Source of the DNA: Bacillota bacterium
GTDB lineage: Bacteria; Bacillota; UBA994
Direction of reading: 5' to 3'
Assembly: GCA_009773495.1 (NCBI GenBank)
Contig: WSXW01000029.1
Span: forward strand, 1-58,640
DNA length: 58,640 nucleotides
A model generated the notes under the pieces. It worked only from the letters and a program-made list of their open reading frames with translations. It ran no database searches and was not told the origin of the DNA. Both the position numbers and the translations under genes were made by a program. Positions 5,469 through 52,559 of this stretch are shown one piece after another. Each line of letters opens with the position of its first letter. Within the stretch, counting starts at the first letter, position 1.

Positions 5469-6719
5469 GTGGCAAGTATTTTTGTGCGAGGAGGCAGAAG
5501 GTTAACCGGTAAGGTAGCAGTTAGCGGAGCGAAGAACGCGGTGCTGCCGATTTTAGCAGCAAGCTTGCTGGCAACTCAGGGAAAGACAAAGCTTAGTTTT
5601 ATCCCACATTTGAATGACGTAGTGACAATGCTTGAAGTCTTAGAGCACCTCGGAGTAAAGGTAGACACCCACGGGGACTTCGTAGAGTTGGATGCAAGCG
5701 ATCTAAGGGATGTAGAAGCACCCTATCAATTGGTAACAAGGATGAGGGCCTCTGTCCTGATCATGGGTCCGCTTCTGGGTCGGCTAGGCAGAGCACGAGT
5801 CTCACTTCCGGGAGGCTGTGCCATCGGTACGCGACCGTTAGATTTGCACCTTAAAGGATTTGGTCTATTAGGCGCAGACATCATAGTAGGGCATGGGTTT
5901 ATCGAAGCTAGAGCGGATCGCCTTGTGGGTGCAACTATCTATCTAGACTACCCCAGCGTTGGAGCGACAGAGAACATCATAATGGCGGCTTGCTTTGCAG
6001 AAGGAATTACTACCATTCAAAACGCAGCGGAGGAACCTGAGATTGTTGACTTAGCTTGTTTTATCAACAGCATGGGTGGTAGAGTCGAGGGTGCAGGGAC
6101 AGACACCATACTCATTCACGGAAAAAAACAATTCGATGGGTCAGACTATCGAGTGATACCAGATCGCATTGAGGCCGGGACATACATGGTGGTAGCGGCT
6201 ATCACCGGTGGGGACATTATTCTGGAGAACGTCATACCTGAGCACGTCATCTCATTGACAGCAAAAATGCGGGAGGCTGGGGTGACTGTGCACTGTCTTA
6301 ATGATCGCGTACATGTTATAGGTCCCGAGAAGATCGAGCCGGTGGATGTAAAAACATTACCGTATCCAGGCTTCCCTACCGATTTACAGCCGCAGATGAT
6401 GGCCCTGTTGTTGTTAGCTCGAGGGACTAGCATCATCACCGAGACAGTTTTTGAAAACAGATTTATGCATGTCCCGGAACTGCGGCGCATGGGTGCAAAC
6501 CTTCGTATCGACGGAAGAAGTGCAGTCATTCGGGGGGTGCCTTGTTTATCCGGCGCACCGGTGGCGGCATCAGATCTTAGAGCGGGTGCGGCCTTAATTC
6601 TCGCAGGTCTGGTAGCAGAAGGCACTACTGAGATCCGCGGGGTCTTTCATATCGAGCGTGGCTATGTCGATATTGTTCTCAAATTGCATCAGGTGGGCGC
6701 AGAGATTTGGCGGGAATGA
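5469..6719 (+). CDS. murA: UDP-N-acetylglucosamine 1-carboxyvinyltransferase MurA
   Basis: MurA transfers enolpyruvate from phosphoenolpyruvate to UDP-GlcNAc, the first committed step of peptidoglycan synthesis in the cytoplasm. The substrate-binding SGAKNA motif gives K22 and N23 on the preferred start. The catalytic, fosfomycin-sensitive cysteine is present in LPGGCAIG (C117). I chose GTG 5469, which gives 416 residues (family about 417-420) and follows a G-rich stretch; ATG 5421 would add 16 unusual residues. The paralogue fits the murAA position between ywmB and spoIID. The spoIID reading frame begins 55 bases after the stop. All key residues seen are intact. Confidence 0.93.
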
Positions 6720-6774
6720 CAACCTTCTAATAGTGCCCTTACAGCATATACTAGATATGCTGGGAGGGGTGACC

Positions 6775-7764
6775 TTGCGGGCTTTGCTTCGTTTTGGGGT
6801 ATTCATCGCACTTATACTTGTCATTATTCCTGCACTTATTGTAAGCATCTGGGGGTGGCTAACGCCGCCCCCTTCAATTTTGGACAGCCCTTATGAAGTA
6901 GCAGTATATATTACTAGCACGTCACAGGTTCTAATGATACCGCTAGAGGAGTATGTAGCTGGGGTTGTGGCAGCAGAAATGCCCGCATCGTTCTCGACCG
7001 CTGCTCTTGAAGCCCAAGCGATAGCCGCTAGGACTTACGCCGCGCACCGGGCGAGCAAGTTTGGTGGTGCGGGGTGCAGCCAACATTCGCTGGCAGACAT
7101 TTGTGACGACCCAGCACATTGCCAAGCATTTTTGCCTTTAGAGGCCCTGCAATTAAAATGGGGCCTAGTATCTTTTAATGAGTACCATACACGGATACGC
7201 CGCGCGGTAGAAAGCACAGTCGGACAAATAATCACGCACAGAGGGCAGGTTATAGATCCCATATTCCACTCCACCTGTGGCGGCCAAACGGAAGATGCTA
7301 ATAAAGTGTGGAGCAATTATTTCTCTTACTTAATCAGAGTTGAATGTAACTTCTGCAGTCACTCCAATCGCCTTACAGAAACCAAAACCTTTAGCCATGC
7401 AGATTTTGTGGCTGCCCTGAAAAAGCAGGACAGTACCATATTGGTCACCGCTCAGCAACTCGCTGGAAAGTCTCCCCCCGTAGAAGTAAAAACGCGCAGC
7501 GAAAGCGGCAGAGTTCTAGAGATGATGCTAGGGTCCAAAACCCTAAAGGGGACTGAGTTACGCTCGGCTTTAGGACTGAATTCCACTAATTTTGCGCTCG
7601 AAATCTCTAGTTCCGAAGTGCGAGTGACCACCACAGGGTACGGACATGGGGTTGGGTTGTGCCAGTATGGGGCAGACGGCATGGCTAAGGCTGGTTACGA
7701 CAGTAGGAAAATCCTCCAATATTATTATCAGGGGGTACAAATTACTAGCCTCAGCGGCAGGTAA
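6775..7764 (+). CDS. spoIID: Stage II sporulation protein D (SpoIID), peptidoglycan lytic transglycosylase
   Basis: SpoIID cleaves the glycan strand of peptidoglycan during engulfment of the forespore, acting in the mother-cell membrane with SpoIIM and SpoIIP (family knowledge). The protein has one N-terminal membrane anchor (about residues 5-24) and then the SpoIID core: EEYVAGVVAAEMPASF with the catalytic glutamate at E68, followed by EAQAIAARTYA, the FHSTCGGQTE motif and the C-terminal YGHGVGLCQYGA. The start is set at TTG 6775, five bases after GGGAGGGG (6762-6769); ATG 6757 lies before that site. This gives 329 residues (343 in B. subtilis). In Bacillus the gene is under sigma-E. Confidence 0.93.
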   Translation: MRALLRFGVFIALILVIIPALIVSIWGWLTPPPSILDSPYEVAVYITSTSQVLMIPLEEYVAGVVAAEMPASFSTAALEAQAIAARTYAAHRASKFGGAGCSQHSLADICDDPAHCQAFLPLEALQLKWGLVSFNEYHTRIRRAVESTVGQIITHRGQVIDPIFHSTCGGQTEDANKVWSNYFSYLIRVECNFCSHSNRLTETKTFSHADFVAALKKQDSTILVTAQQLAGKSPPVEVKTRSESGRVLEMMLGSKTLKGTELRSALGLNSTNFALEISSSEVRVTTTGYGHGVGLCQYGADGMAKAGYDSRKILQYYYQGVQITSLSGR

Positions 7765-7894: not shown

Positions 7895-8674
7895 ATGGCA
7901 AGTCGTATACGCGGTTACATGAACAAGCAGCGATTGAGAGCAGTAGTCTACTTCGAGTCTCTAAGCTACAGGATTAATAACATTAAATTCTCCCAGGTCA
8001 TGAAGAGCAGGGGGTTTTTACTCGCGACATACCTCGTAGTGATGTTAGGGCTAGCGGGTTTGTGGTGGTGGAATAGTCCTTATAGGCTTGGCAACAATCC
8101 CATTAATCTTCCGGATTATCCGCCAGTCACTCAAATTCCAACGCCGGGGGTAATTGTGGATGATGAGCCATCTGCAGAAACCACAGGTGGAACACAGGAG
8201 CCGAACTTGCCTGTAGCTGAAAAGCCAGCACCCGAAGAGGAGCCGGCGTTGCCTGTACTGAGTCTAACTACTCCTGTCGACAAGCTGAAGAGACCTGTAG
8301 AAGGGACTATTACCGCACCCTTTGGATTCAAGTGGTCTAACACCTACCAAGACTATCGTTGGCGGCACGGTGTAGGCATCGCTTCTACGCAGGGCACACC
8401 GGTAGTTGCGGCAATAGCCGGAAGAGTATTAAGCGTTGTGGAACAAGACCCGGAGTGGGGATGTAAGGTGATTATTGACCATGGTAACAGCTGGAAATCT
8501 GTCTACGCTAACATTACCAAGGTGTCAGTGAAGGTAGGTCAAAAGATAGCTGAAGGTCAGCAGATCGGCCAAGTCGGGTCAAATCCACCTGCCATGAGCG
8601 CAGATAGCCCGCAGCTGTATTTCGCCCTCTATGAACGTGAAGAATCGGTTGACCCCACCTCGATGTTTAAGTAG
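7895..8674 (+). CDS. spoIIQ: SpoIIQ-like forespore M23-fold protein, probably non-catalytic
   Basis: SpoIIQ sits in the forespore membrane and binds mother-cell SpoIIIAH across the intermembrane space, forming the feeding-tube channel (family knowledge). This 259-residue protein has one transmembrane helix at about residues 44-63, a Pro/Glu-rich linker, and a C-terminal LytM/M23 domain from about 130. The zinc-binding H-x-G-x-D motif reads R157-H-G-V-G161, and the usual histidine of the second motif is N206 (YANI), so peptidase activity is probably lost; B. subtilis SpoIIQ also has a degenerate site. GGAGG at 7879 precedes the ATG. Position after spoIID supports the name. The usual next gene, spoIIID, is displaced by about 29 kb. 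Confidence 0.85.
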   Translation: MASRIRGYMNKQRLRAVVYFESLSYRINNIKFSQVMKSRGFLLATYLVVMLGLAGLWWWNSPYRLGNNPINLPDYPPVTQIPTPGVIVDDEPSAETTGGTQEPNLPVAEKPAPEEEPALPVLSLTTPVDKLKRPVEGTITAPFGFKWSNTYQDYRWRHGVGIASTQGTPVVAAIAGRVLSVVEQDPEWGCKVIIDHGNSWKSVYANITKVSVKVGQKIAEGQQIGQVGSNPPAMSADSPQLYFALYEREESVDPTSMFK

Positions 8675-8830
8675 TACCAAGCCATTGGCGTGGTAGAGAA
8701 AGATTAAAGACAACCTATACAGGTGGCTCTGCATTGAACTGAGCCCTAGATTGTAGACACCCTAAAAGGGCGGGGATTATACTGCTAATAGGCGGTTCCT
8801 GTATTCAACAGGGGCCACTTTTTTTCGCGT
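8675..8830 (+). other. Structured intergenic region downstream of spoIIQ
   Basis: No open reading frame is convincing here. Several hairpins can form: TACCA-GCCA/TGGC-TGGTA just after the spoIIQ stop, GGCTC/GAGCC at about 8725-8745, and the terminator at 8794-8825. GTGGC (8723-8727) can also pair with GCCAC (8814-8818), which would compete with the terminator. This could be a trailer, a small RNA or a switch. I recognise no known RNA family. Confidence 0.3.
8794..8825 (+). terminator. Rho-independent terminator downstream of spoIIQ
   Basis: GGTTCCTGT (8794-8802) pairs with ACAGGGGCC (8808-8816), using two G-U pairs, around a 5-base loop. A run of seven T follows at 8819-8825. Confidence 0.7.
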
Positions 8831-8923
8831 TCACTGGTAGCCCGATGGTTAGAATCTTGCCCCAGCCTAGCGTAACAAAAGCCGGTTGGTTTCGTCCAAT
8901 GACATAGTTAGACAAACATGATA

Positions 8924-8952
8924 TTGCAGGAATATGGTAACTATTGTAGAAT
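8924..8952 (+). promoter_or_regulatory. Candidate promoter of the type I-B cas operon
   Basis: TTGCAG (8924-8929), a 17-base spacer and TAGAAT (8947-8952) form a reasonable sigma-A promoter. Transcription would start near 8959, giving a leader of about 75 bases before cas6. No other good promoter is visible between the terminator at 8825 and cas6. Confidence 0.55.
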
Positions 8953-8961
8953 TAATGCGTA

Positions 8962-9003
8962 GACAACAGGGAGCGGGCAACTAGAGTGGTTGTCCGCTTT
9001 TTT
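8962..9003 (+). terminator. Terminator in the cas leader, possible attenuator
   Basis: AGCGGGCAAC (8972-8981) pairs perfectly with GTTGTCCGCT (8989-8998), followed by six T (8998-9003): a textbook intrinsic terminator only 31 bases before the cas6 start and downstream of the candidate promoter. GACAAC (8962-8967) is complementary to GTTGTC (8989-8994), part of the right arm, so an alternative fold could block the terminator. Confidence 0.6.
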
Positions 9004-9034
9004 ATTGCTGTGACACTACACTTGGAGGTATAAA

Positions 9035-9994
9035 ATGAGCGGCTTTGCAAAACTTAAGCTCGTCAAACTCGACTTCATCATAGCCGCGGGAGAAGCAGGG
9101 TTATCCTTGCCCCGTTACAAAGGTTCTACGTTTCGCGGTGGCTTTGGCTCCACCTTTAAAGAAATTGTCTGCAGTCAGCGCCAGGCACAGTGCGCGGAGT
9201 GCTTGTTATTCCTCTCATGCCCGTACAAGTACATTTTTGAAACAATTCCTCCCGCAAATATTCAGGTGCCCAGTGGCTTTAGCGATGCTCCGCGCCCCTT
9301 TATTTTGCGTCCGCCGCTTGCTGAGAAAACCGATTTCGCACTGTGGGAGAACCTTACCTTCTCACTAATTCTTGCTGGGCGGGGGATAGACTACCTGCCT
9401 TATTTCATCCTTGTTTTTAAAGAATTGGGCGTAAAGGGCTTGGGTAAGGGGCGTCGGCCTTTCTCTTTAGTGAAGGTAGAATCCACCGATTTACATGACG
9501 GCATTCCTAGCCTTGTATATGATGCATCTACCGGGCGCATACAGAACAACTTATCCATAATAACTGGCGAGCAGATTTTAGAAATCCCGCGTCCAGCCAC
9601 GCACAGCCTCTCTTTGGACTTCCTAACTATGACTCGACTCACAAGCGACGAGCGGCAAATGGCTAAACCCTACTTTAATCTTGTTATGCGCGCAGTTTTT
9701 CGTCGACTTACGTCCATGCTGCTGTTTCATCACGACACCATATTAGAGTTGCCTTTTCCAGATCTACTTGAGCAAGCTTCCCATGTGGAATTAGTTGTCG
9801 ATGCTACAGAATGGGCAGATTGGGAGAGGTATTCGAGTCGCCAAGATGCCAAAATGAGCATGGGTGGTATTGTCGGTAAAGCAACCTACCGCGGTGACCT
9901 CACTCCTTTTTATCCTTATCTTAAAGCAGCCGAGTTTTTACACGTCGGCAAAGGCGTGGTGTTTGGGTTGGGGTGGGTGAGAATGGAGGCTTAG
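9035..9994 (+). CDS. cas6: CRISPR pre-crRNA endoribonuclease Cas6
   Basis: Cas6 cuts the CRISPR transcript within each repeat to give crRNAs with an 8-nt 5' handle (here expected ACTGAAAC). The 319-residue protein matches the Cas6 family that begins with RYKGSTFRGGFGSTFK and a Cys-rich CPYKYIFET segment. It ends with the glycine-rich RAMP loop (HVGKGVVFGLGWVRM). It is the first gene of the type I-B operon; GGAGG at 9024-9028 precedes the ATG. It is the only Cas6 in the window, so it probably also supplies crRNA to the type III-B complex encoded after the array. The catalytic residues cannot be assigned with confidence by eye. Confidence 0.88.
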   Translation: MSGFAKLKLVKLDFIIAAGEAGLSLPRYKGSTFRGGFGSTFKEIVCSQRQAQCAECLLFLSCPYKYIFETIPPANIQVPSGFSDAPRPFILRPPLAEKTDFALWENLTFSLILAGRGIDYLPYFILVFKELGVKGLGKGRRPFSLVKVESTDLHDGIPSLVYDASTGRIQNNLSIITGEQILEIPRPATHSLSLDFLTMTRLTSDERQMAKPYFNLVMRAVFRRLTSMLLFHHDTILELPFPDLLEQASHVELVVDATEWADWERYSSRQDAKMSMGGIVGKATYRGDLTPFYPYLKAAEFLHVGKGVVFGLGWVRMEA

Positions 9995-10031
9995 AAAAAC
10001 ACATTTAATCAAAGAGAGGAGGTGAATAACT

Positions 10032-11414
10032 TTGTCGTTTGATCTACTAAGGTATACTGGTCATGTTTTCGTAGATGCTGGCATTGCCGTAGTGGAAACG
10101 CAAATAGGAAAGCCATGTACAGAAATAGATTCGGGCAGTCTAAGATTATTGGAGGAATGGCTACTAGAGCAATATGCGAATCCGCCGATGAGAGCATATC
10201 TTTCGATTCATTTTCCAAACTCCCCGTGGTGTAACTTTAACCCTAAAATACCTGCAGAACGGCGCAGGGCAAACCAGTTAACCCTCCTGCGGGCATATGA
10301 GGCCCCGCTGTTAGAGCCGGCGGCAGCATGTCCATTTTGTGGACGTACGGCGCAGTTTTTGGCCGATAAACAGCACATACCCTTGCTTAGCTCAGCCGCC
10401 TGCCTAGTTACTGCTCCCTATGGTCGTGTGGGCACTCCGGTGTGCGGCTACTGTTTGCTTGCCATACAGTTTTACCCCTTGGGGACTATTAAGGCGACAG
10501 GCAAACCATTAATTTGGTGGACGCCAAATCAGAAGCTGCTCCAACGTTTGACAAGCATACATTTTAAGAAACTACAGCGTATTATTGCGCTAAGGGGAGA
10601 AAAAGTGCAATCCCTAGATTGGCCGCGAAGTCGATTATTGGAATCCGCCAAGCTGGTGGTTGACACTATTGACGACAAGAGGGAGTTTTGTGATTGTATT
10701 GGGTATCATTTTACTAATTACGGATCAGGACCAGATTTTAAGCAGTATTTTTTACCGCATCAGCTCCTAGATTTTTGGTGGGACGTAAAGATGTCTTCTG
10801 CAACGGTGCGCGAGGTACACGCTGGCATTGAGAGAGAAGCTTGGGCGACGCCAAAGCAGAAGAAGCGACCGTTGGAAGAGGACGAGCTTGAAAGCATGTC
10901 GCTGCGCAATAGGTATTATGAATTTCTGAGTGAGGCTTTTATGAGCCCTGACTGGGAAAGAAGAGCTAAGCTGGTTGTTCGTAAGTTCTTCCTACAGACA
11001 AAAAACATATCCCGTAATAGTTTTGATTTGGCCGAACTTTTTTTAAGAAGGGTGAGTGGCATGGAAAAATATCGGTTGGAGGTAATACGTAAGGCTGCAG
11101 ACTCGATCGCCGATTTGGTCCTAGACCATGGAGAAAAACGCTGGCTCACTAATCTTTACATGAAAGAGCTAAGATCGCGAGAATTAATGAACTATTTGCT
11201 GCGTTGCCAAAGACGTCTATGTGATGCCAAGAGACCTTTGGAGTGGGAAAACGTCTTGCAGCTATTGGATGTTTCTTCGGCAGATGAAAACCCGTTAGGA
11301 GACTGGTGGCTGGTAAGAGACTTGCTCCTGATGCGCATACTGGAGAGAGTAGGGCAGACAAATGCACCCTTGGTGAGGGAGTTAGAGGTCATGGAAAAGG
11401 AGGAGGTAGAGTAA
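10032..11414 (+). CDS. cst1: Type I-B Cascade large subunit Cas8b1/Cst1 (CXXC-CXXC)
   Basis: The large subunit of Cascade helps recognise the PAM and recruits Cas3. This 460-residue protein has the paired CXXC zinc site that names the Cst1 (Tneap) family: CPFCG with C100/C103 and CGYC with C138/C141. The remainder is a divergent, mostly helical sequence, as is usual for Cas8. The start is TTG 10032 behind a very strong site (GAGAGGAGGTGA, 10014-10025). It lies between cas6 and cst2, and only one base separates its stop from cst2, so the genes are translationally linked. The assignment rests on the cysteine pairs plus position. Confidence 0.82.
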   Translation: MSFDLLRYTGHVFVDAGIAVVETQIGKPCTEIDSGSLRLLEEWLLEQYANPPMRAYLSIHFPNSPWCNFNPKIPAERRRANQLTLLRAYEAPLLEPAAACPFCGRTAQFLADKQHIPLLSSAACLVTAPYGRVGTPVCGYCLLAIQFYPLGTIKATGKPLIWWTPNQKLLQRLTSIHFKKLQRIIALRGEKVQSLDWPRSRLLESAKLVVDTIDDKREFCDCIGYHFTNYGSGPDFKQYFLPHQLLDFWWDVKMSSATVREVHAGIEREAWATPKQKKRPLEEDELESMSLRNRYYEFLSEAFMSPDWERRAKLVVRKFFLQTKNISRNSFDLAELFLRRVSGMEKYRLEVIRKAADSIADLVLDHGEKRWLTNLYMKELRSRELMNYLLRCQRRLCDAKRPLEWENVLQLLDVSSADENPLGDWWLVRDLLLMRILERVGQTNAPLVRELEVMEKEEVE

Positions 11415-11415
11415 T

Positions 11416-12510
11416 ATGGCACACTTATCAGGACTCTTGTTGATTGATTGTCCAGCTTCTGCCCTCAATAATGCTGGTGCCGTGGAAGATGCTAGGACAG
11501 ATAATACCGTTGCCGTGAAACGCATATCGTCTAAAGCGGGTGTATTCCCTTATGTTTCTGCACAGGCTTTTCGCTATTGGTTACGGAGTATTCTCAGCAA
11601 GATGGATGGATGGACGAGTTCACCAGTATTTAGGGAAGGTAAAATCGCCTATACGGACGCCAACCCCATACAATACGCAGAAGATGATGTATTTGGCTAT
11701 ATGCGTGCGCCATCAGGATCGGCAGAAGCGAAAAAATTACGTGAAGAACAAGGGATAGATAATAAAGCCACTGCCATGCAAGATAAAGTGACCCTCACGA
11801 GGCAATCACCACTTAAAGTTAGCACTTTAGTATCAATTGCTCCACTGCGAGAGGTAACCACAGATTTTGGAGTTATGGCAAGGCAAGAGGGGAATGCAGT
11901 GCCCTTTGAGCATGAATTTTATCGCACCACCTTAAGCGGCCTTTATTCCATGGACCTTGCTATGCTTGGAAGATTCTACAGCGTCAACAGGTCTGGCTTC
12001 AAGCATCTGGACGAAGTGCGCTTAAAGCAGGCTATCGAGTTGAAACTAGCACCTTTCGATGATGGTCGTGCCTATGAACTGCCGTTAGCTGAGCGAAAAA
12101 ACCGCTTAAGTAAGGTTCTTCTCGCGTTAGGCGAGCTGACTGGAGGAGCTAAGCTAGCGATGCACTATACGGACGTAGCTCCAAAACTACTGATTATGGC
12201 TGTAACAAAAGGAGGGAATCACATTTTTTCTACGGCCGTTGGAGCGGATGCCAAAGGGCTTCCTCTAATTAAGCATGATGCTATTAAGGAAATCGCCCGG
12301 GTATACAAGGACGAGATTATAAGTGGTATGTATGTCGGGTTGCCACAGGGGTATCTTGACGAACAACGCGCTGAATTGTCTGCAACCTTAAACGAAATCA
12401 GTAAAGGCGCAGAATATAACAATAGGTGCACTTTCCTCGGCCATCCTCGTGAAGCAATAAAAAAACTGCTGGCGGACTTGGAAACGGAAGCTAGTGTATG
12501 GTTAGCGTAA
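11416..12510 (+). CDS. cst2: Type I-B Cascade backbone subunit Cas7 (Cst2/DevR)
   Basis: Cas7 polymerises along the crRNA spacer to form the backbone of Cascade. The 364-residue protein has the DevR/Cst2 start: GLLLIDCPASALNNAG, then NTVAVKRI and FPYVSAQAFRYWLR, the conserved RNA-binding RAMP region. The ATG is one base after the cst1 stop, with GGAGG inside the end of cst1. The last 13 bases overlap cas5. A full-length family member with no visible defect. Confidence 0.9.
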   Translation: MAHLSGLLLIDCPASALNNAGAVEDARTDNTVAVKRISSKAGVFPYVSAQAFRYWLRSILSKMDGWTSSPVFREGKIAYTDANPIQYAEDDVFGYMRAPSGSAEAKKLREEQGIDNKATAMQDKVTLTRQSPLKVSTLVSIAPLREVTTDFGVMARQEGNAVPFEHEFYRTTLSGLYSMDLAMLGRFYSVNRSGFKHLDEVRLKQAIELKLAPFDDGRAYELPLAERKNRLSKVLLALGELTGGAKLAMHYTDVAPKLLIMAVTKGGNHIFSTAVGADAKGLPLIKHDAIKEIARVYKDEIISGMYVGLPQGYLDEQRAELSATLNEISKGAEYNNRCTFLGHPREAIKKLLADLETEASVWLA

Positions 12511-13277
12511 CAGCCCTCAAAATTACAACCACTGCGCGGACAGCATCGTTCCGCTACCCCCACGTCATGGTTGGCAGATTGCCAACATATGAAATGCCTC
12601 CTCCAGCCACTATTTATGGCCATTTGTGTAGTGTGGTAGGCAAATGGTTTGATCCCACTGGGCTAGAATTTGCTTATATTTTTACGCATCAGGGCATAGG
12701 AGAGGATTTAGAAACAGCGCATGTAGTAGAGGAAGCAGGGAATCGCAGGGGGATCAATGAACTTGGCTTGCCAAAAAACCTCGAGGGCAGCATAAATATA
12801 CAAAGACGGCAGTTTCTGCTGAATGTAGAAATGCATCTTTATGTAAAAGGACCAAGTGAGATGCTAAACCAGCTAAAAATAGGATTTATTTCTCCAGTTT
12901 TTAGCTATATATTGGGACGGAGTCAAGATCTTGCGACTTGTCATTCTGCCATTATGGTAGATCTAGCGGCCGGGCAGCGTTTCTTCTTTTCCGGCACCTT
13001 ATTGCCATGGGAGTTGAGACCATATGTGACGAACGGTGTACCTGTCTTGATGCCGGCCAAGATCGATTATCTTAACTATCGTGAACCAACCTTTGCGCAG
13101 TACGTTCAAATTGGTACGCGCCCGCTTCGGATTGACTTATGCGAGGAAGGTGACGATGTCTTGTCATCACGCCCCTTTGAACAGGCCCTTGTGGACGCGA
13201 ACCATCACCTAGAAGTCAGAGGCGTTACATATTCTCGCGGGTTATGGTTTATGCCTATGCGAGGTGTTGGAAATTGA
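12498..13277 (+). CDS. cas5: Type I-B Cascade subunit Cas5 (Cas5t)
   Basis: Cas5 caps the 5' handle of the crRNA in Cascade. The 259-residue protein carries the Cas5 N-terminal signature: TASFRYPHVMVGRLPTYEMP, then PPATIYGHLCS. The sequence agrees with the Cas5t branch found beside Cst1 and Cst2. ATG 12498 lies inside the end of cst2 (13-base overlap). The gene ends by overlapping the probable cas3 start, so cst2, cas5 and cas3 are tightly coupled. The family's C-terminal region is intact as far as can be seen. Confidence 0.88.
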   Translation: MVSVTALKITTTARTASFRYPHVMVGRLPTYEMPPPATIYGHLCSVVGKWFDPTGLEFAYIFTHQGIGEDLETAHVVEEAGNRRGINELGLPKNLEGSINIQRRQFLLNVEMHLYVKGPSEMLNQLKIGFISPVFSYILGRSQDLATCHSAIMVDLAAGQRFFFSGTLLPWELRPYVTNGVPVLMPAKIDYLNYREPTFAQYVQIGTRPLRIDLCEEGDDVLSSRPFEQALVDANHHLEVRGVTYSRGLWFMPMRGVGN

Positions 13278-15562
13278 GTGACAGCAAGCTATGGTCTAAA
13301 ACCCCGCCGAACCCCGGTGAGCCGGGGTTATCTTTATGCGAGCATACGAGGGATGTCGTTAAGGTGATGGGGGAATTAGTTGATTTGTATCAAAAAGAGT
13401 TATCTTTAATTGCTCCCGGTATTGTACCTTTATTGTTGCAGGCTGCCTTACTCCATGATTTAGGTAAAGCTCACCCACAATTCCAACAGTATCTGAGGGG
13501 TGGTCCTCCATTTAAGCTACGCCATGAGGTGTTGAGTTTAGCAATGGTATCGGCGGAGTTAAGTGTGGAGGAAAAGATTTTGGTCGCAGGAGCCGTAGTG
13601 ACACATCACCGGAATTGGGCTTACTTAATGGGTGAAGGGTCTAGTACAGCTTATTACGCCGACAGAAAGCCGGCATCCGAAATAGGGCCGTTGGTTGAGT
13701 TATGCCAAGGATTAGATTCAGATCTCTTTGCCGAGATCAAACAGATGATAATGAAAATTGCTGAGGAGCAAAGTTTAACTCAAGTAGGCTGGCGGTCTGC
13801 TTACACAAACATGTTAGACGCGGTACATCTTCACTTGCAAGAAATAAGGGCCACCGAGAAGAGGTTAAAGAGTGACGCTTACGTGATGAGTGCAGACCCT
13901 TTTATCAAAAGAGCAATCATTATGAGAGGGTTTCTTATGCAAAGCGATTACTTGGCCAGTGGTGGAGCAAAACGAGTACTCCGTGGTGTATCAAGCTTGC
14001 CGGAGATGGAAAGATTGTTGTTTCCGAAGGTAAATATGTGGGAGCACCAACATAGAGTAGCAGCGTTACCCGCTAATGTTATTCTTATAGCTCCCACTGG
14101 GGCCGGGAAGACTGAAAGCGCTTTGCTCTGGAGTACCGTAGTCAAAGAGCGTCTGCAGCTCGGAGGACGAACTTATTTTTTACTCCCTTATCAAGCAAGT
14201 ATGAACGCCATGACATCTCGTCTGCGCAGAGTTTTCGGCGAGCCATGCGTATCAGTCATTCACGGCAAGAGCCTAATTCGAACTTACCAGAACCCCCTTG
14301 ACGATGGGTATGATATCTCGCAATCTCGCCGCATGGTGCGTGAGAAAGAAGCAATTGCAAGATTAAACGTAGCTCCTATAAGGGTATCTAGCCCACTGCA
14401 GCTTATTAAGGCATTCTTTACCTCCAAGGGGCACGAAGCAATTATTTGTGGGACTCTGGGGGCACAAATAATTTTTGATGAAATCCACGCATATGACTTG
14501 AACATTACTGCAATGGCACTCGCCTGTGCTAAATATCTTGCGGACCATTTTTTAGCCAAGTGCCTATTCATGTCAGCAACCATGCCCACTCACTTGAGAA
14601 GTATTCTTGAGGAGATGTTCGTTATAGAACATGTCATTAGGCCAGAACTACGATGGTTGGCATCGATAGAAAGGCATAAACTCTCGATACTGAGTGAGGA
14701 CTATTTAGAAGCAGCGCCTAGAATTTTACACGCTGCGCAGAGTGGGCTTACTGTTCTAGTTGTGCTTAATCAACCAATGCGGGCTGTAAGGTTATGGGAA
14801 TTTATCCGTAGTCAAGACTATGACGATGTTTTGCTTTTTCATAGTCGTTTTACGGCTGAGGACAGGGTACTAAAGGAACAGCAAGTTGAACCTAAGCCTG
14901 GGCGCATATTAATCGCGACCCAGGTAGTTGAAGTATCTCTAGACATAGATTATGACACGTGTTTTACAGAACTCGCGCCCCTTGAGTCACTTTTACAACG
15001 GTTTGGCAGAGTGAACCGGTACAGCAAGAGGGATCCCGCCGATGTTTTTTTGTTCGCAGAGTTTAACGGAGAGCAGCACAAATATGCACCCTATGATAAG
15101 ACCCATTTGCAGAGTGTGCTAGCTGTTTTAAAGGACTTTCGCAACTCTAGTGCTGACGGGCTGTTGCGCGAAGAAAATCTGCAAGAGCTTCTCGACCTCA
15201 CTTATTCCGCTGAGATGAAAACGGCACTTAAGAAAATCTTAGCTGAAAAAATCGCGCTCTTTGAGAGATTTGTAATTCGCGAGCAGCTGCCTTTAGGAAT
15301 GAGTCCTGCGGCTGACATGGAGGACTTAGAAAGACAGTGGGAGGCGCTTTTTGACGGGCATGAAGTAATTCCCGCGTGCAAAGAGGAGCTAGCGCTTCGT
15401 TGTGATACCGCGTTGGATGTGGTCAAATATCTGGTCCCGCTGTCCTCGCCTATATTTTTTGCTCTAAATAAAGCAGGGCATGTAAGGTATAGCAAAATTT
15501 TAAAAAGTTTTATTGCGGATATGCCGTATGACCAGATTAGCGGGCTAAAAACCTCTCTTTAG
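13274..15562 (+). CDS. cas3: CRISPR helicase-nuclease Cas3 (HD plus SF2)
   Basis: Cas3 is recruited by target-bound Cascade and unwinds and degrades foreign DNA. The 762-residue protein fuses an N-terminal HD nuclease (CEHTRDV; LLHDLGKAH with H61-D62; VTHHRNW) to an SF2 helicase. The helicase has a Walker A (APTGAGKTES, K279), motif II DEIHAYD (D402), motif III MSATMP and motif VI LLQRFGRVNR. The start is TTG 13274, which overlaps the cas5 stop (TTGAGTGA), with GAGG at 13261-13264; upstream in-frame codons lie inside cas5 and give a poor N-terminus. All motifs needed for DNA degradation are present, so interference looks functional. Confidence 0.93.
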   Translation: MSDSKLWSKTPPNPGEPGLSLCEHTRDVVKVMGELVDLYQKELSLIAPGIVPLLLQAALLHDLGKAHPQFQQYLRGGPPFKLRHEVLSLAMVSAELSVEEKILVAGAVVTHHRNWAYLMGEGSSTAYYADRKPASEIGPLVELCQGLDSDLFAEIKQMIMKIAEEQSLTQVGWRSAYTNMLDAVHLHLQEIRATEKRLKSDAYVMSADPFIKRAIIMRGFLMQSDYLASGGAKRVLRGVSSLPEMERLLFPKVNMWEHQHRVAALPANVILIAPTGAGKTESALLWSTVVKERLQLGGRTYFLLPYQASMNAMTSRLRRVFGEPCVSVIHGKSLIRTYQNPLDDGYDISQSRRMVREKEAIARLNVAPIRVSSPLQLIKAFFTSKGHEAIICGTLGAQIIFDEIHAYDLNITAMALACAKYLADHFLAKCLFMSATMPTHLRSILEEMFVIEHVIRPELRWLASIERHKLSILSEDYLEAAPRILHAAQSGLTVLVVLNQPMRAVRLWEFIRSQDYDDVLLFHSRFTAEDRVLKEQQVEPKPGRILIATQVVEVSLDIDYDTCFTELAPLESLLQRFGRVNRYSKRDPADVFLFAEFNGEQHKYAPYDKTHLQSVLAVLKDFRNSSADGLLREENLQELLDLTYSAEMKTALKKILAEKIALFERFVIREQLPLGMSPAADMEDLERQWEALFDGHEVIPACKEELALRCDTALDVVKYLVPLSSPIFFALNKAGHVRYSKILKSFIADMPYDQISGLKTSL

Positions 15563-15622
15563 AGATGGTGTTGGTATATCCTAGATAATTATTCTTAATA
15601 ATTAATTTTGAGGTGAGTGCTA

Positions 15623-16630
15623 ATGGAAATCATCGTCGACAACTTTGGTTCATTTGTCGGCAAGAAAAGCGAACGCCTTGTAGTAAAAAACAAGGATTCA
15701 ATAGTAGTGGAAGAACCATTTTTCAAGATCGAAAGTATTACTTTAGCTTCAGGCGGTATTTCTATTTCAACGGACGCAATAGAGGAATGCATGACTCATG
15801 GTATTCAGATAAACCTGATGTCTCCGAATGGCAAGGTTTACGGTGTGATACACTCCCCTCACGTGAATGCCACTATTGTCACTAGGCGGGCGCAGTTACT
15901 GGCGGCCATGGATAGCAGGGGTATAGAGCTAGTAAAGGCTATTATTTCCGGTAAAGTACATAACCAAATAAACACCCTCAAGTACTTTGCCAAGCATCTT
16001 AAAGAAAACAGGGTAGAACTTCATGAGTTCACCCAAACAGCAGTAAACAAAATGGATAAACATTTGAGTCACATACGCTCTTTGGAGAGTGAATCTCTTG
16101 ATGATTTACGTCCTATAGTTTTTGCTGCTGAAGGGCAAGCAGCGGACACCTATTGGAAGACAGTAGCCGAGATCCTTAAAGGAAAGGTAGAGATACCAGG
16201 CAGAGAGCACCGTGGGGCAACAGACCCATTCAATATGTTTTTGAACTATGGGTATGGTATTTTATATGGGCGCATATGGGGCGCAATTAGCACCGCCGGT
16301 CTTGATCCATATGCAGGATTCCTACATGTGGACCGCTCTGGGAAAGCCAGCATGGTGCTAGATTTCATTGAGGAGTTTCGACAGGCCATAGTTGACCGAG
16401 TGGCGATAGCCTCATTTAGTCGGGGATTCGATATGAAGCAGGAAAACGGACAATTAACAATTGAGACCAGAAGTGAAATTGCCAAGCGTGTGAGCGAAAG
16501 GTTAGATTCTACAGACAGCTACGACGGCAAAAAGTATAAACTCAGCAATATTATTCACGCTCAGTCGCGTAAGCTAGCTTCTTTCTTGAGGGGCGAAGGT
16601 AAATACACGTCTCACATTGCGGGGTGGTAG
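15623..16630 (+). CDS. cas1: CRISPR integrase Cas1
   Basis: Cas1 with Cas2 inserts new spacers at the leader end of the array. The 335-residue protein shows the metal-binding triad of the family: E170 (FAAEGQAADTYW), H235 (GFLHVDRSGK) and E250 in DFIEEFR. ATG 15623 is chosen because GAGGTG (15610-15615) is seven bases upstream; GTG 15617 is too close. The gene is separated from cas3 by 60 bases that include an A/T-rich stretch, so a separate promoter for the adaptation genes is possible. Its stop abuts cas2. Confidence 0.93.
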   Translation: MEIIVDNFGSFVGKKSERLVVKNKDSIVVEEPFFKIESITLASGGISISTDAIEECMTHGIQINLMSPNGKVYGVIHSPHVNATIVTRRAQLLAAMDSRGIELVKAIISGKVHNQINTLKYFAKHLKENRVELHEFTQTAVNKMDKHLSHIRSLESESLDDLRPIVFAAEGQAADTYWKTVAEILKGKVEIPGREHRGATDPFNMFLNYGYGILYGRIWGAISTAGLDPYAGFLHVDRSGKASMVLDFIEEFRQAIVDRVAIASFSRGFDMKQENGQLTIETRSEIAKRVSERLDSTDSYDGKKYKLSNIIHAQSRKLASFLRGEGKYTSHIAGW

Positions 16631-16631
16631 T

Positions 16632-16895
16632 ATGCCAGTGCTTCTCCTTTACGACATCACCGATGATAGGATTCGCCACAAGGTTTCTGAGGCGTGCAAA
16701 GACTATGGTCTAAAACGAGAGCAGTACAGCGCCTTTTCGGGTCAGCTCAACACCAACAAGCGAGAAGAACTGTTTATGAGAGTAAAAAAGCTGCTCGGAC
16801 GCCATGGGGGCAGTATTCATCTCTACAATATTTGCGAAAAAGACTTTCGTTTGCGCCAGACATATAAGGTTGAGGAGCCAAAAGAGGATGATTGA
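16632..16895 (+). CDS. cas2: CRISPR adaptation protein Cas2
   Basis: Cas2 is the dimeric scaffold of the Cas1-Cas2 integrase. The 87-residue protein begins with the ferredoxin-fold strand MPVLLLYDITDDRIR, with the conserved aspartate at D8, and has the usual length. ATG 16632 lies one base after the cas1 stop, with GGGGTGG just upstream inside the cas1 end. The last eight bases overlap cas4. Nothing unusual. Confidence 0.92.
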   Translation: MPVLLLYDITDDRIRHKVSEACKDYGLKREQYSAFSGQLNTNKREELFMRVKKLLGRHGGSIHLYNICEKDFRLRQTYKVEEPKEDD

Positions 16896-17466
16896 GCTTA
16901 AGGTGACGGATATAAAGCAATATTTTTATTGCCCGCGCATCGTTTATTTCTGCTACGTCATGCCAGTGGACAAAAAGGTGAGTTTTAAGATGTCGGCAGG
17001 CACTATCGAACATATTAGGTTCGAGACTTTAGAAAAGAGGCGTAAAGTTATACGCTACGGTTTAGAGCAAGCTGAAAGACGTTTTCGCGTACCGCTCTAT
17101 TCCAAACGGTTAGGTCTGCGCGGGGTACTTGATATGCTCTTAATCAATACACAGGGCGAGATGTTTCCTGTAGAGCATAAAGCAACTATGCAACGCCTTG
17201 GCCTTAACCACAAGTATCAGCTGGCAGCTTACGCCATACTCGTAGAAGATGAATTTTCTACGCAAGTTCGCAGAGGTTTTCTGTATGCCTCTTTAAGCAA
17301 GGAGCTAAGAGAGGTCGAGGTCGATCATTCTATTCGCAGGGCGTTGCAGAGGGTTTTGGTAATCATACGCAACATGATAAGTACACAACGATTACCTAAA
17401 GTTCTGCACGATAAAAGTCGCTGCGGCGATTGTGAATACAGGCTATATTGTTTAGATGTGAGGTGA
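16888..17466 (+). CDS. cas4: CRISPR-associated exonuclease Cas4
   Basis: Cas4 is a RecB-type nuclease that trims pre-spacers and helps select PAM-containing ends. The 192-residue protein has the nuclease core: D82 in GVLDML, E96 and K98 in PVEHK, and QLAAYA. It also has four cysteines for an iron-sulphur cluster (C15; C179, C182, C188). The start is ATG 16888, overlapping cas2 by eight bases; a longer in-frame extension into cas2 lacks family similarity. It is followed four bases later by a second Cas4-family gene, csa1. Confidence 0.9.
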   Translation: MIELKVTDIKQYFYCPRIVYFCYVMPVDKKVSFKMSAGTIEHIRFETLEKRRKVIRYGLEQAERRFRVPLYSKRLGLRGVLDMLLINTQGEMFPVEHKATMQRLGLNHKYQLAAYAILVEDEFSTQVRRGFLYASLSKELREVEVDHSIRRALQRVLVIIRNMISTQRLPKVLHDKSRCGDCEYRLYCLDVR

Positions 17467-17470
17467 AGTA

Positions 17471-18388
17471 ATGTATTTTCTTAACGATGAAGAAAGAAAG
17501 CTATTGCTGCGTAAGTTGTTGCCAAAATCAAGGGCGGAAGCAGCAGTTGCGGATGAACTGCGAGGGTGGAATTGGCACCAGCCGCCACTTGAGCCTCTCT
17601 ATGATTTAAAGCTTGCTGTTTACGAAGTGGCGGGGCAATATTGTTCCAGTGGCAGGGATTTGTTCTTGCGAAAAGTAAGGGGAGCAAAACTCATAGCCAA
17701 TTCAGAAATGCAAGCAGGCAGCCTGCTGCACGAGACTGTGGCGCTTGCGCTAACCAGCGCTAAGAGATTGCTTTACACCTATGGCATCGAGCGCGTGGAC
17801 CAAGTCTTAAAGGATATTGTTCAAGTTCCAAATGCTCTCATTAGTAAGGCTGGCGTAGGCGATCGGCGGGTGTACAATGAAATTTTGGTCAAAGCAGCGT
17901 GGGTGTATGAGTATAATAGCATAGCGTCGCGCCTGCAAAGTTATCTTTCTCGCTTTCCCTACATAAGCGTTGATTCGCTTGTCACCCTTGCTTTGCCTAT
18001 TGTTCTCGAGCAGAGGCTAGACGGCAGTTTTTTAGGGCTGTCTAAAGGAATCAGTACAGACGCTTATGTATTCTCAGAGCCAATGGTTCTCGATATGAAG
18101 CTTGGCTTGCCTCGTCCATTCCACAGGCTGAGTACAACAGGCTACGCTTTGGCCATGGAGTCACTATATGAGTTTCCGGTCAGCCTAGGGTGTACAGTTT
18201 ACGTTGAATACAAGAATAACCGCATCCACGTTAATAAGGACATGTATATTATTAGCGATGAACTTCGGCAGTGGTTTATTGATTCGCGCGATGAACGAAT
18301 GCGTATGGTAGTCGAAGAAATAGATCCCGGAGTGTCAAATAATTGCTATGATACATGCCCGATGAGAACTGCGTGTAAAGGGGTCTAA
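17471..18388 (+). CDS. csa1: Csa1-type Cas4-family protein (second Cas4)
   Basis: The 305-residue protein resembles Csa1, the Cas4-like family usually seen with type I-A adaptation genes: MYFLNDEERKLLLRKLLP, ELRGWNWHQPP, and a cysteine in QYCSSGRD (C58). A C-terminal cluster C292, C296, C302 follows (CYDTCPMRTAC), giving four cysteines for an iron-sulphur cluster. LDMKLG near residue 213 may be part of the nuclease site. The ATG follows GAGGTGAAG. It is the last gene before the leader and is co-oriented with cas4. In Pyrococcus two Cas4 proteins define the two ends of a new spacer, and a similar division of labour is plausible here. Confidence 0.8.
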   Translation: MYFLNDEERKLLLRKLLPKSRAEAAVADELRGWNWHQPPLEPLYDLKLAVYEVAGQYCSSGRDLFLRKVRGAKLIANSEMQAGSLLHETVALALTSAKRLLYTYGIERVDQVLKDIVQVPNALISKAGVGDRRVYNEILVKAAWVYEYNSIASRLQSYLSRFPYISVDSLVTLALPIVLEQRLDGSFLGLSKGISTDAYVFSEPMVLDMKLGLPRPFHRLSTTGYALAMESLYEFPVSLGCTVYVEYKNNRIHVNKDMYIISDELRQWFIDSRDERMRMVVEEIDPGVSNNCYDTCPMRTACKGV

Positions 18389-21812: not shown

Positions 21813-21862
21813 AATAGCCGCATCACGCATGCCACCAACGAGGCATGTGTGATGCGGCTATT
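21813..21862 (+). terminator. 21-bp inverted repeat between array and type III-B operon
   Basis: 21813-21833 and 21842-21862 are complementary over 21 bases with one G-U pair, around an 8-base loop (ACCAACGA). It begins about 150 bases after the last repeat and ends 41 bases before the CARF gene. The downstream TTTGTATTTG is U-rich. It probably stops the array transcript; it also lies where a leader of the type III-B operon would be. Confidence 0.6.
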
Positions 21863-21903
21863 TGTATTTGAATGCGGTAAATGTATCCGAAAGGGGAAAT
21901 ATC

Positions 21904-23424
21904 ATGAACTGTTTTATTATTAATCTCGGAAATAGCGACATAAATTATGAGTCTCTTACCTCGGAATTACTGGCAGCTAACATAGAGACCGAAAGAAAAG
22001 AAGGGTGGGATTATCGGGCGATTGCAAAATGGATTTCCCAAAATTATGAGACGTCTAGGCATAAAATTGATTTTCCTATTGTTAAGCAGATATTAAAGCA
22101 GGCTACGCGAGACGATCTTGTGATGCTTATTGGGACTGACCAGCATAACAAAATGAGCAAAAGTGATACTTATCCGGCGGGGGAGCTGTTAAAGAAGGTT
22201 TTGCAGGATGGTTTTTGGGACGACAATCGTAATAGAAGTTTTCCTAATGTGACTGTTAGAAAATTGTTATCCCCTGCGAATTTAGACAAAACCTACAAGT
22301 TCTACCTCAATTTGCTGGAGAATGATGCAGATCTTAAAGCCATCAGAGGGCACGTCTATGGGAGTATAACCGGGGGCACTCAGCAAATGAACTCTGCGCT
22401 ATTGATGGTCGGTGTTCAAGTCTATAATGATAGATTTAGCGCCTTATATGTTCCTAAAGAAGAAAATGACAAATCAGGTCAGGTAGAGCAGTTATCCATA
22501 TCTGGCAATTTAGTGCGAAAAACTAAATATGATTTCCTCTTAACAGGGCTTGCTACTGCATTAAACAGGAGAGATTATATTGCGATTGTTGACATTCTTA
22601 ACGATAACAGTGAACTGCTTGCCGCTTTCCCCCAAGCCCCTTGGCGTTATTTAAGAAAATTTGTCACGCTTCTGCAACTGCGGCTGAATTTTGACTTTGG
22701 TTGCGCGGTGCTCGTAGCGGACAAGGTAGGGGCACTCTCTAAGGAAGACGCAGGCGTAAATTGGTATGTGAATAGCGTAAGGAACGAGTTACTTTATCTT
22801 AAGGAAGCGGTTGAAACAGAAGACTACCAGCGTAATGCTAAACAACAATGCCTACTTATTCGTGAGTTATATGCTAATCTCCAGTGGAAACTTGAGCGAA
22901 ACGAGTGGGCTGACGTTTTATCTCGTATCTTCAGGTATCAAGAGGCAGTTCTTTATTATATATGCAGTACAAACGGGGCTCAATTCAGTGTCGGGGGTAA
23001 GGAGGCCAGAAAATTATATTTTGATCCGGCGTGGATCAGTCAGCACCCAGAGATAGGAGGCTATTTGCTAAACAAAAATATCATTGTTGATTGTCCTGTC
23101 AATCGTCACAACCTCTTAGGCGTGGCAAAGTTTTTAGCACAGCAAGCCGAGGCGCGTGATTTTGTAAAGTCAATTGAAAAATGGGAAAAACTTGCAGACT
23201 TGCGTAACAAGTCTGTGGTAGGGCATGGTTTTCGAGGCGTATCAAGTGAACATGTTTTGCATGAAGGGCAATTGGGGACAGTCGATGACTTAATTAAGAA
23301 GCTAATTAAAGAGCAGGAGAAACTGGGTTTCGCACCAGAAAGTCATTATGATGCAGCAAAAAAACACATCGATCGGATTCTGCAAAAGATGCGCAAGGCC
23401 AAACCTCAGGATGCACAGTTATGA
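21904..23424 (+). CDS. CARF-HEPN ribonuclease (Csm6/Csx1-like)
   Basis: Proteins of this type bind cyclic oligoadenylate made by Cas10 through an N-terminal CARF domain and then degrade RNA with a C-terminal HEPN domain. The 506-residue protein begins MNCFIINLGNSD, and has the CARF signature SITGGTQQM at T156-T159. Near the C-terminus is the HEPN motif R434-N435...H441 (LRNKSVVGHG), which fits R-X4-6-H. The start is ATG 21904 after AAAGGGGA; the upstream TTG lies in the hairpin region. It is the first gene of the type III-B operon, 46 bases before cmr1. The family could be Csm6, Csx1 or the TIGR02710 group; the CARF-HEPN call is firmer than the subfamily. Confidence 0.82.
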   Translation: MNCFIINLGNSDINYESLTSELLAANIETERKEGWDYRAIAKWISQNYETSRHKIDFPIVKQILKQATRDDLVMLIGTDQHNKMSKSDTYPAGELLKKVLQDGFWDDNRNRSFPNVTVRKLLSPANLDKTYKFYLNLLENDADLKAIRGHVYGSITGGTQQMNSALLMVGVQVYNDRFSALYVPKEENDKSGQVEQLSISGNLVRKTKYDFLLTGLATALNRRDYIAIVDILNDNSELLAAFPQAPWRYLRKFVTLLQLRLNFDFGCAVLVADKVGALSKEDAGVNWYVNSVRNELLYLKEAVETEDYQRNAKQQCLLIRELYANLQWKLERNEWADVLSRIFRYQEAVLYYICSTNGAQFSVGGKEARKLYFDPAWISQHPEIGGYLLNKNIIVDCPVNRHNLLGVAKFLAQQAEARDFVKSIEKWEKLADLRNKSVVGHGFRGVSSEHVLHEGQLGTVDDLIKKLIKEQEKLGFAPESHYDAAKKHIDRILQKMRKAKPQDAQL

Positions 23425-52301: not shown

Positions 52302-52388
52302 TCTGATGGCTGCAATAGTACGCTTATTTGTGGATGGAATTTCTGCGAGTATTGACTCTAGGTAGGGGATAATCTACTATAGTATTGA

Positions 52389-52487
52389 CTCATCAAGAGT
52401 GGCTGAGGGACAGGCCCTATGAAGCCCGGCAACCGGCGTGTTAACGCTATGGTGCTAATTCCTGCAGAGAAATCTCTGGAAGATGAG
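52389..52487 (+). promoter_or_regulatory. SAM-I (S-box) riboswitch controlling metK
   Basis: The aptamer has the S-box core: P1 arms CTCATC (52389-52394) and GATGAG (52482-52487), the AAGAGTGGCTGAGGGA segment, GGCCCTATGAAGCCCGGCAACC, and the GGTGCTAATTCC strand. Downstream, GAGAGGCG and CGCTTCCTC (about 52486-52518) can form the expression-platform hairpin before TTCTTTT. High S-adenosylmethionine should stop metK transcription (family knowledge). Confidence 0.95.
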
Positions 52488-52559
52488 AGGCGTGGCTTTA
52501 TCTTAGTCGCTTCCTCTTCTTTTGGAGGAGGTGATTTTTTGTTGGGGAGGTAAAATACT

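Follow-up and report, generated by a model that had tools for sequence, protein, structure and literature searches.

A Rho-independent terminator directly upstream of cas6 in a type I-B-like cas operon of a Bacillota bacterium, most readily read as fixed rather than switching

The window analysed here is a 58,640-nucleotide stretch of a Bacillota bacterium (contig WSXW01000029.1), in which a type I-B-like cas operon lies on the forward strand at 9035-18388. The operon contains cas6, a putative cas8, cas7/cst2, cas5, cas3, cas1, cas2, cas4 and csa1, and is followed by an array of 37-bp CRISPR repeats. Its opening gene, cas6 (9035-9994, +), was identified with Pfam and NCBIfam models and is preceded by a GGAGG ribosome-binding site at 9024-9028 (+). 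The second gene (10032-11414, +; 460 amino acids) matched no Pfam or NCBIfam model and is likely to be a divergent Cas8, a name given by position only. Cas4 (PF01930) and Csa1 (PF06023, a protein otherwise named for type I-A) are both encoded at 16804-18388 (+). The Cas6 of this operon was the only one found in the genome, and a second Cas1 is encoded on another contig (C53). On the far side of the array, a very stable hairpin (21817-21858, +; 17 pairs, -34.3 kcal/mol) lies about 220 nt past the last CRISPR repeat and is possibly the array terminator. The gene 3′ of the array (21862-23424, +) matched the CARF protein Csm6 only weakly, at 25.8 bits where 150 are needed.

The nearest gene upstream of the cas operon encodes a spoIIQ-like M23 peptidase (7895-8674, +; Peptidase_M23, 5e-23; SpoIIQ model NF053738, 4e-13, under the cut-off of that model), which itself stands downstream of spoIID (6658-7764; TIGR02870, 5e-96). 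The 360 nt that separate the spoIIQ-like gene from cas6 contain two intrinsic terminators on the forward strand. The first (8791-8825, +), a hairpin of -14.3 kcal/mol followed by a T run, serves the spoIIQ-like gene. The second, at 8972-9003 (+), lies about 150 nt further on and is the subject of this analysis.

The hairpin at 8972-9003 is formed by a stem of 12 pairs (8972-8983 with 8987-8998) closed by a GAG loop at 8984-8986, and runs directly into the T tract TTTTTTATT, which begins at 8998 and supplies six T at 8998-9003. Its stability was calculated as about -17 to -18 kcal/mol (-17.1 for the stem alone). It is one of the strongest terminators between genes in the window, and a 77-nt leader containing it folded at -25.4 kcal/mol (z = -3.4). 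Judged by its sequence, it is a real intrinsic (Rho-independent) terminator, combining a stable G+C-rich hairpin with an immediate U tract. A reading made earlier from the sequence alone had placed a perfect terminator here, 31 bases ahead of cas6. The place was right, as 31 nt separate position 9003 from the cas6 ATG at 9035. Two of the pairs are G-U wobbles (G8977-U8993 and U8982-G8988), however, and the stem is therefore not quite perfect. No open reading frame of at least 20 amino acids ends at the hairpin on the forward strand. The leader has no second copy in the genome and no plasmid match, and an origin from a repeat unit or mobile element was rejected on these grounds. A search of viral contigs with the terminator core pattern gave seven raw pattern matches.

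To assess how unusual this placement is, we used a background sample of 455 kb, made up of the window and 20 further stretches of the genome (396 kb). By a single rule, 38 strong intergenic terminators were found in this sample, and 14 of them have a gene in the same direction beginning no more than 120 nt downstream, according to gene calls that are crude. Seven of these 14 come within 40 nt after a called gene. Inspection of the sequences placed one other after a small SASP-like gene and one after a sigma-factor gene; a further one resembles an operator palindrome at a promoter, and two have weaker hairpins and lie 70 and 100 nt past a gene. Throughout the sample, a strong hairpin with a gene close downstream and no gene ending at it was found only at 8972-9003 and at 52506, the latter being the terminator of a SAM riboswitch on the same contig. 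This riboswitch (RF00162, 91.8 bits; 52387-52535, +), which served as our positive control, has its terminator at a distance of 24 nt from the gene that follows. As nothing else in 455 kb is comparable, the placement of the 8972-9003 hairpin is unusual and resembles that of a leader terminator.

Whether the hairpin lies inside the cas transcript depends on where that transcript starts, and three promoter-like pairs were considered, all on the forward strand. P1 (TAGACA-18-TATGGT, 8909-8938; 9 of 12 consensus matches) and P2 (TTGCAG-17-TAGAAT, 8924-8952; 8 of 12, as 3 + 5) would start transcription upstream of the hairpin, at about 8945 and 8959 respectively. P3 (TAGACA-16-TAGAGT, 8960-8987; 9 of 12) would start it at about 8994. 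All three scores are within chance. Pairs scoring at least 8 occur 3.6 times per kb on the same strand of the window, and about 69% of shuffled leaders had a best pair that reached this score; P2, which was the pair originally put forward as the promoter, is thus at chance level. Four leader RNAs are known in the genome, namely SAM, FMN and molybdenum-cofactor riboswitches and a T-box leader, and the best promoter-like pair before each of them has a 17-nt spacer and a score of 9. Three of these pairs, those of the SAM, FMN and T-box leaders, contain TTG. P2 likewise has TTG and a 17-nt spacer, and by this likeness it may be regarded as a fair candidate. Downstream of the hairpin, a sigma-70 promoter would not fit into the interval 9004-9034 before the ribosome-binding site; the best overlapping pair scored 7 of 12 in this search, which covered sigma-70 promoters only.

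The likeliest reading of these observations is that the cas operon is bounded on its 5′ side by an ordinary intrinsic terminator that is fixed and does not switch. More specifically, we favour a fixed brake within the cas leader that involves no RNA switch, to which we assign a probability of about 0.45. The cas transcript would start just upstream of the hairpin, at about 8945-8960, and most polymerases would stop at about 9003, releasing a short RNA of some 45-60 nt, so that cas6 would be reached only by those that read through. The strength of the hairpin and its six T, the rarity of such a placement in the 455-kb sample, the lack of a reading frame of 20 or more amino acids ending at it on the forward strand, the prior termination of the spoIIQ-like gene at 8791-8825, the lack of room for a later sigma-70 promoter and the likeness of P2 to the pairs before known leader RNAs all argue for such a brake. 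Against it, no promoter rises above chance, and a start from P3 would fall inside the hairpin.

This last point leads to a different arrangement. Here the hairpin stops transcripts arriving from upstream, which may have run on past the sporulation genes or may be a short RNA, and the 5′ end of the cas mRNA lies at the hairpin or within it. With P3, for example, that end would be at about 8994, in the right arm; such an mRNA would lack the hairpin, which would then be a mere boundary. P3 scores higher than P2 (9 against 8 of 12), and most of the terminators that stand shortly before a gene in this genome do no more than close off something further upstream. On the other hand, transcripts of the spoIIQ-like gene already meet a terminator 150 nt earlier. 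P3 is itself within chance, its spacer is 16 nt, and it has no TTG, unlike the probable promoters of three leader RNAs known in this genome. We consider a boundary of this kind quite possible, if somewhat doubtful.

The sequence-only reading had proposed instead that the terminator is one of two exclusive folds, in which GACAAC (8962-8967, +) pairs with GTTGTC (8989-8994) in the right arm and so frees transcription into the operon. The two hexamers are indeed exact complements, and occur at such a spacing only once in the genome. Of the 99 intergenic terminators of the genome, however, 5 have a 6-nt stretch complementary to their right arm in the 20 nt upstream and 10 in the 40 nt upstream, and 2.9% of leader shuffles held one, so that such a complement is at chance level here. 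A fold forced through the GACAAC pairing reached -8.2 kcal/mol, against -20.9 kcal/mol for the terminator, and is thus weaker by about 12.7 kcal/mol. When folding of the growing transcript was followed, the GACAAC pairing was not the best fold at any length. In riboswitches, an antiterminator usually occupies the left arm while the right arm is still to be transcribed. The proposed pairing needs the right arm, which is made last and is met first by the adjacent left arm. No antiterminator of comparable stability that would form ahead of the terminator was found. A two-state RNA switch of the kind described is accordingly very unlikely, and we give scarcely any credence to a release of transcription by GACAAC. 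What stands of the proposed attenuator is a terminator between the end of the spoIIQ-like gene and cas6 that does not belong to the spoIIQ-like gene and has a leader-like position; the GACAAC mechanism does not stand.

Attenuation by a translating ribosome was considered for two short reading frames, 8934-8984 (MVTIVELMRRQQGAGN) and 8955-8984 (MRRQQGAGN). Both contain Arg-Arg-Gln-Gln and have their stop codon in the left arm, so that they end inside the hairpin. They have no ribosome-binding site, however, comparable frames were found at 16 of 62 terminators, and the start codon would lie upstream of the transcript if P2 were used. A leader-peptide attenuator is therefore hardly tenable, and was rejected for want of a ribosome-binding site and because such frames are common.

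Small RNAs encoded at cas loci (CreRs) have been reported to limit cas expression, in type I-B systems among others (PMC13131331). A putative degenerate CRISPR repeat at 8827-8852, in which GCGTTCACTGGTAGCCCGATGGTTAG is similar to the 5′ part of the array repeat, might by analogy give rise to a short guide RNA acting as a repressor of the cas promoter. Its repeat-likeness score was reached in about 5% of shuffles, though, and was surpassed elsewhere in the window. The 8-nt handle ACTGAAAC is missing, seed matches are at the level of shuffles, and matches of the array spacers to the leader do not exceed chance. The absence of a handle, together with seeds and spacers at chance level, therefore disfavours a CreR, which we regard as extremely improbable, and a CRISPR-repeat origin of the leader was rejected for the same reasons.

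It is also conceivable that the terminator is a regulated attenuator of the type I-B cas leader, opened by a protein, by an RNA acting in trans or by a ligand-binding element not recognised here, for example on infection. In its placement the hairpin resembles the terminator of the SAM riboswitch on this contig, and the genome employs leader RNAs of several kinds. In addition, a transcript starting near 8828 would contain TGGTAGCCCG, near 8835-8844, as a possible partner for the left arm (-13.3 kcal/mol); 9.6% of shuffles equal this pairing, which is within chance. Against regulation, no Rfam family exceeded its threshold in the leader (the best, the L20 leader, gave 20.1 bits where 58.7 are needed), and only the SAM riboswitch at 52387 passed. 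The 143 nt upstream of the hairpin are no more structured than shuffles (z = +1.2), which also counts against a leader brake, although the test is a weak one, as the aptamer region of the SAM riboswitch itself gives z = -0.3. Leaders starting at P1 or P2 would have just 12-27 nt or so before the hairpin, and neither a conserved leader or aptamer nor any conservation among Cas6 relatives was found. We consider a regulated attenuator unlikely.

The comparison with relatives was made at a distance: the nearest Cas6 relatives are 46-49% identical, and the class is represented by only 15 genomes. Two overlapping sets of leaders of Cas6 relatives were scanned, 64 from genome contigs and 31 from whole genomes. 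Eight of the 64 have a hairpin and T run within 260 nt, but none has one as near to cas6 as here, and the set of 31 agrees; most of the scanned leaders have no terminator within 260-330 nt. Cas6 relatives were not found in viral contigs, and a Cas6 of this kind is absent from relatives of the same family. In the three relatives with the closest spoIIQ-like gene, the sequence downstream of that gene is different. Conservation of the hairpin and of its proposed partner thus finds no support among distant relatives, and the leader brake gains none from it; because near relatives are lacking, this is a lack of evidence rather than evidence of absence.

One family of relatives (f30: L005, L057, L058 and L059, with the closely similar L128) has a recurrent hairpin of the GGCAGGAGGAATTCTCCTGCC type with a T run, some 80-330 nt upstream of cas6. 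It is flanked by TGTCGAA upstream and TTCGACA downstream, which could pair across the hairpin, and its sequence is unrelated to that of the 8972-9003 hairpin. An exact 13-mer, GGCAGGAGGAATT, occurs (counting both strands) at two places in each of four f30 genomes. It is possible that the f30 leader is a structured cas leader of independent origin.

Among known systems, the SAM riboswitch leader is like the cas leader in having a strong intrinsic terminator 24-35 nt before a gene and far from the previous one. It differs in that the cas leader has no recognised aptamer or antiterminator, its alternative pairing engaging the wrong arm and being far too weak. Our limited full-text literature search for attenuation of cas operons found only work on the CRISPR array leader of Pseudomonas aeruginosa, where the small RNA PhrS acts against Rho-dependent termination and the cas operon is unaffected (PMC6700203). 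In both cases a terminator upstream of CRISPR functions is able to limit transcription, but termination is Rho-dependent and at the array leader in that system, whereas here it is intrinsic and before cas6. CreRs (PMC13131331) are set apart by their repeat handle and their guide match to the promoter, neither of which is present here. The hairpin and T run, with no sign of a switch, are also those of a simple intergenic terminator, from which 8972-9003 differs in its position: the upstream gene has its terminator 150 nt earlier, and 31 nt separate the hairpin and T run from the gene that follows.

If the hairpin is only a boundary, it is ordinary. If it lies within the cas mRNA, as we favour, the level of cas expression would be set by how often polymerase reads through an intrinsic terminator, a layer of control that our limited search did not find for cas operons. 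Were the terminator in fact a regulated attenuator, premature termination would hold down the CRISPR defence genes of this bacterium until a signal raised their expression.
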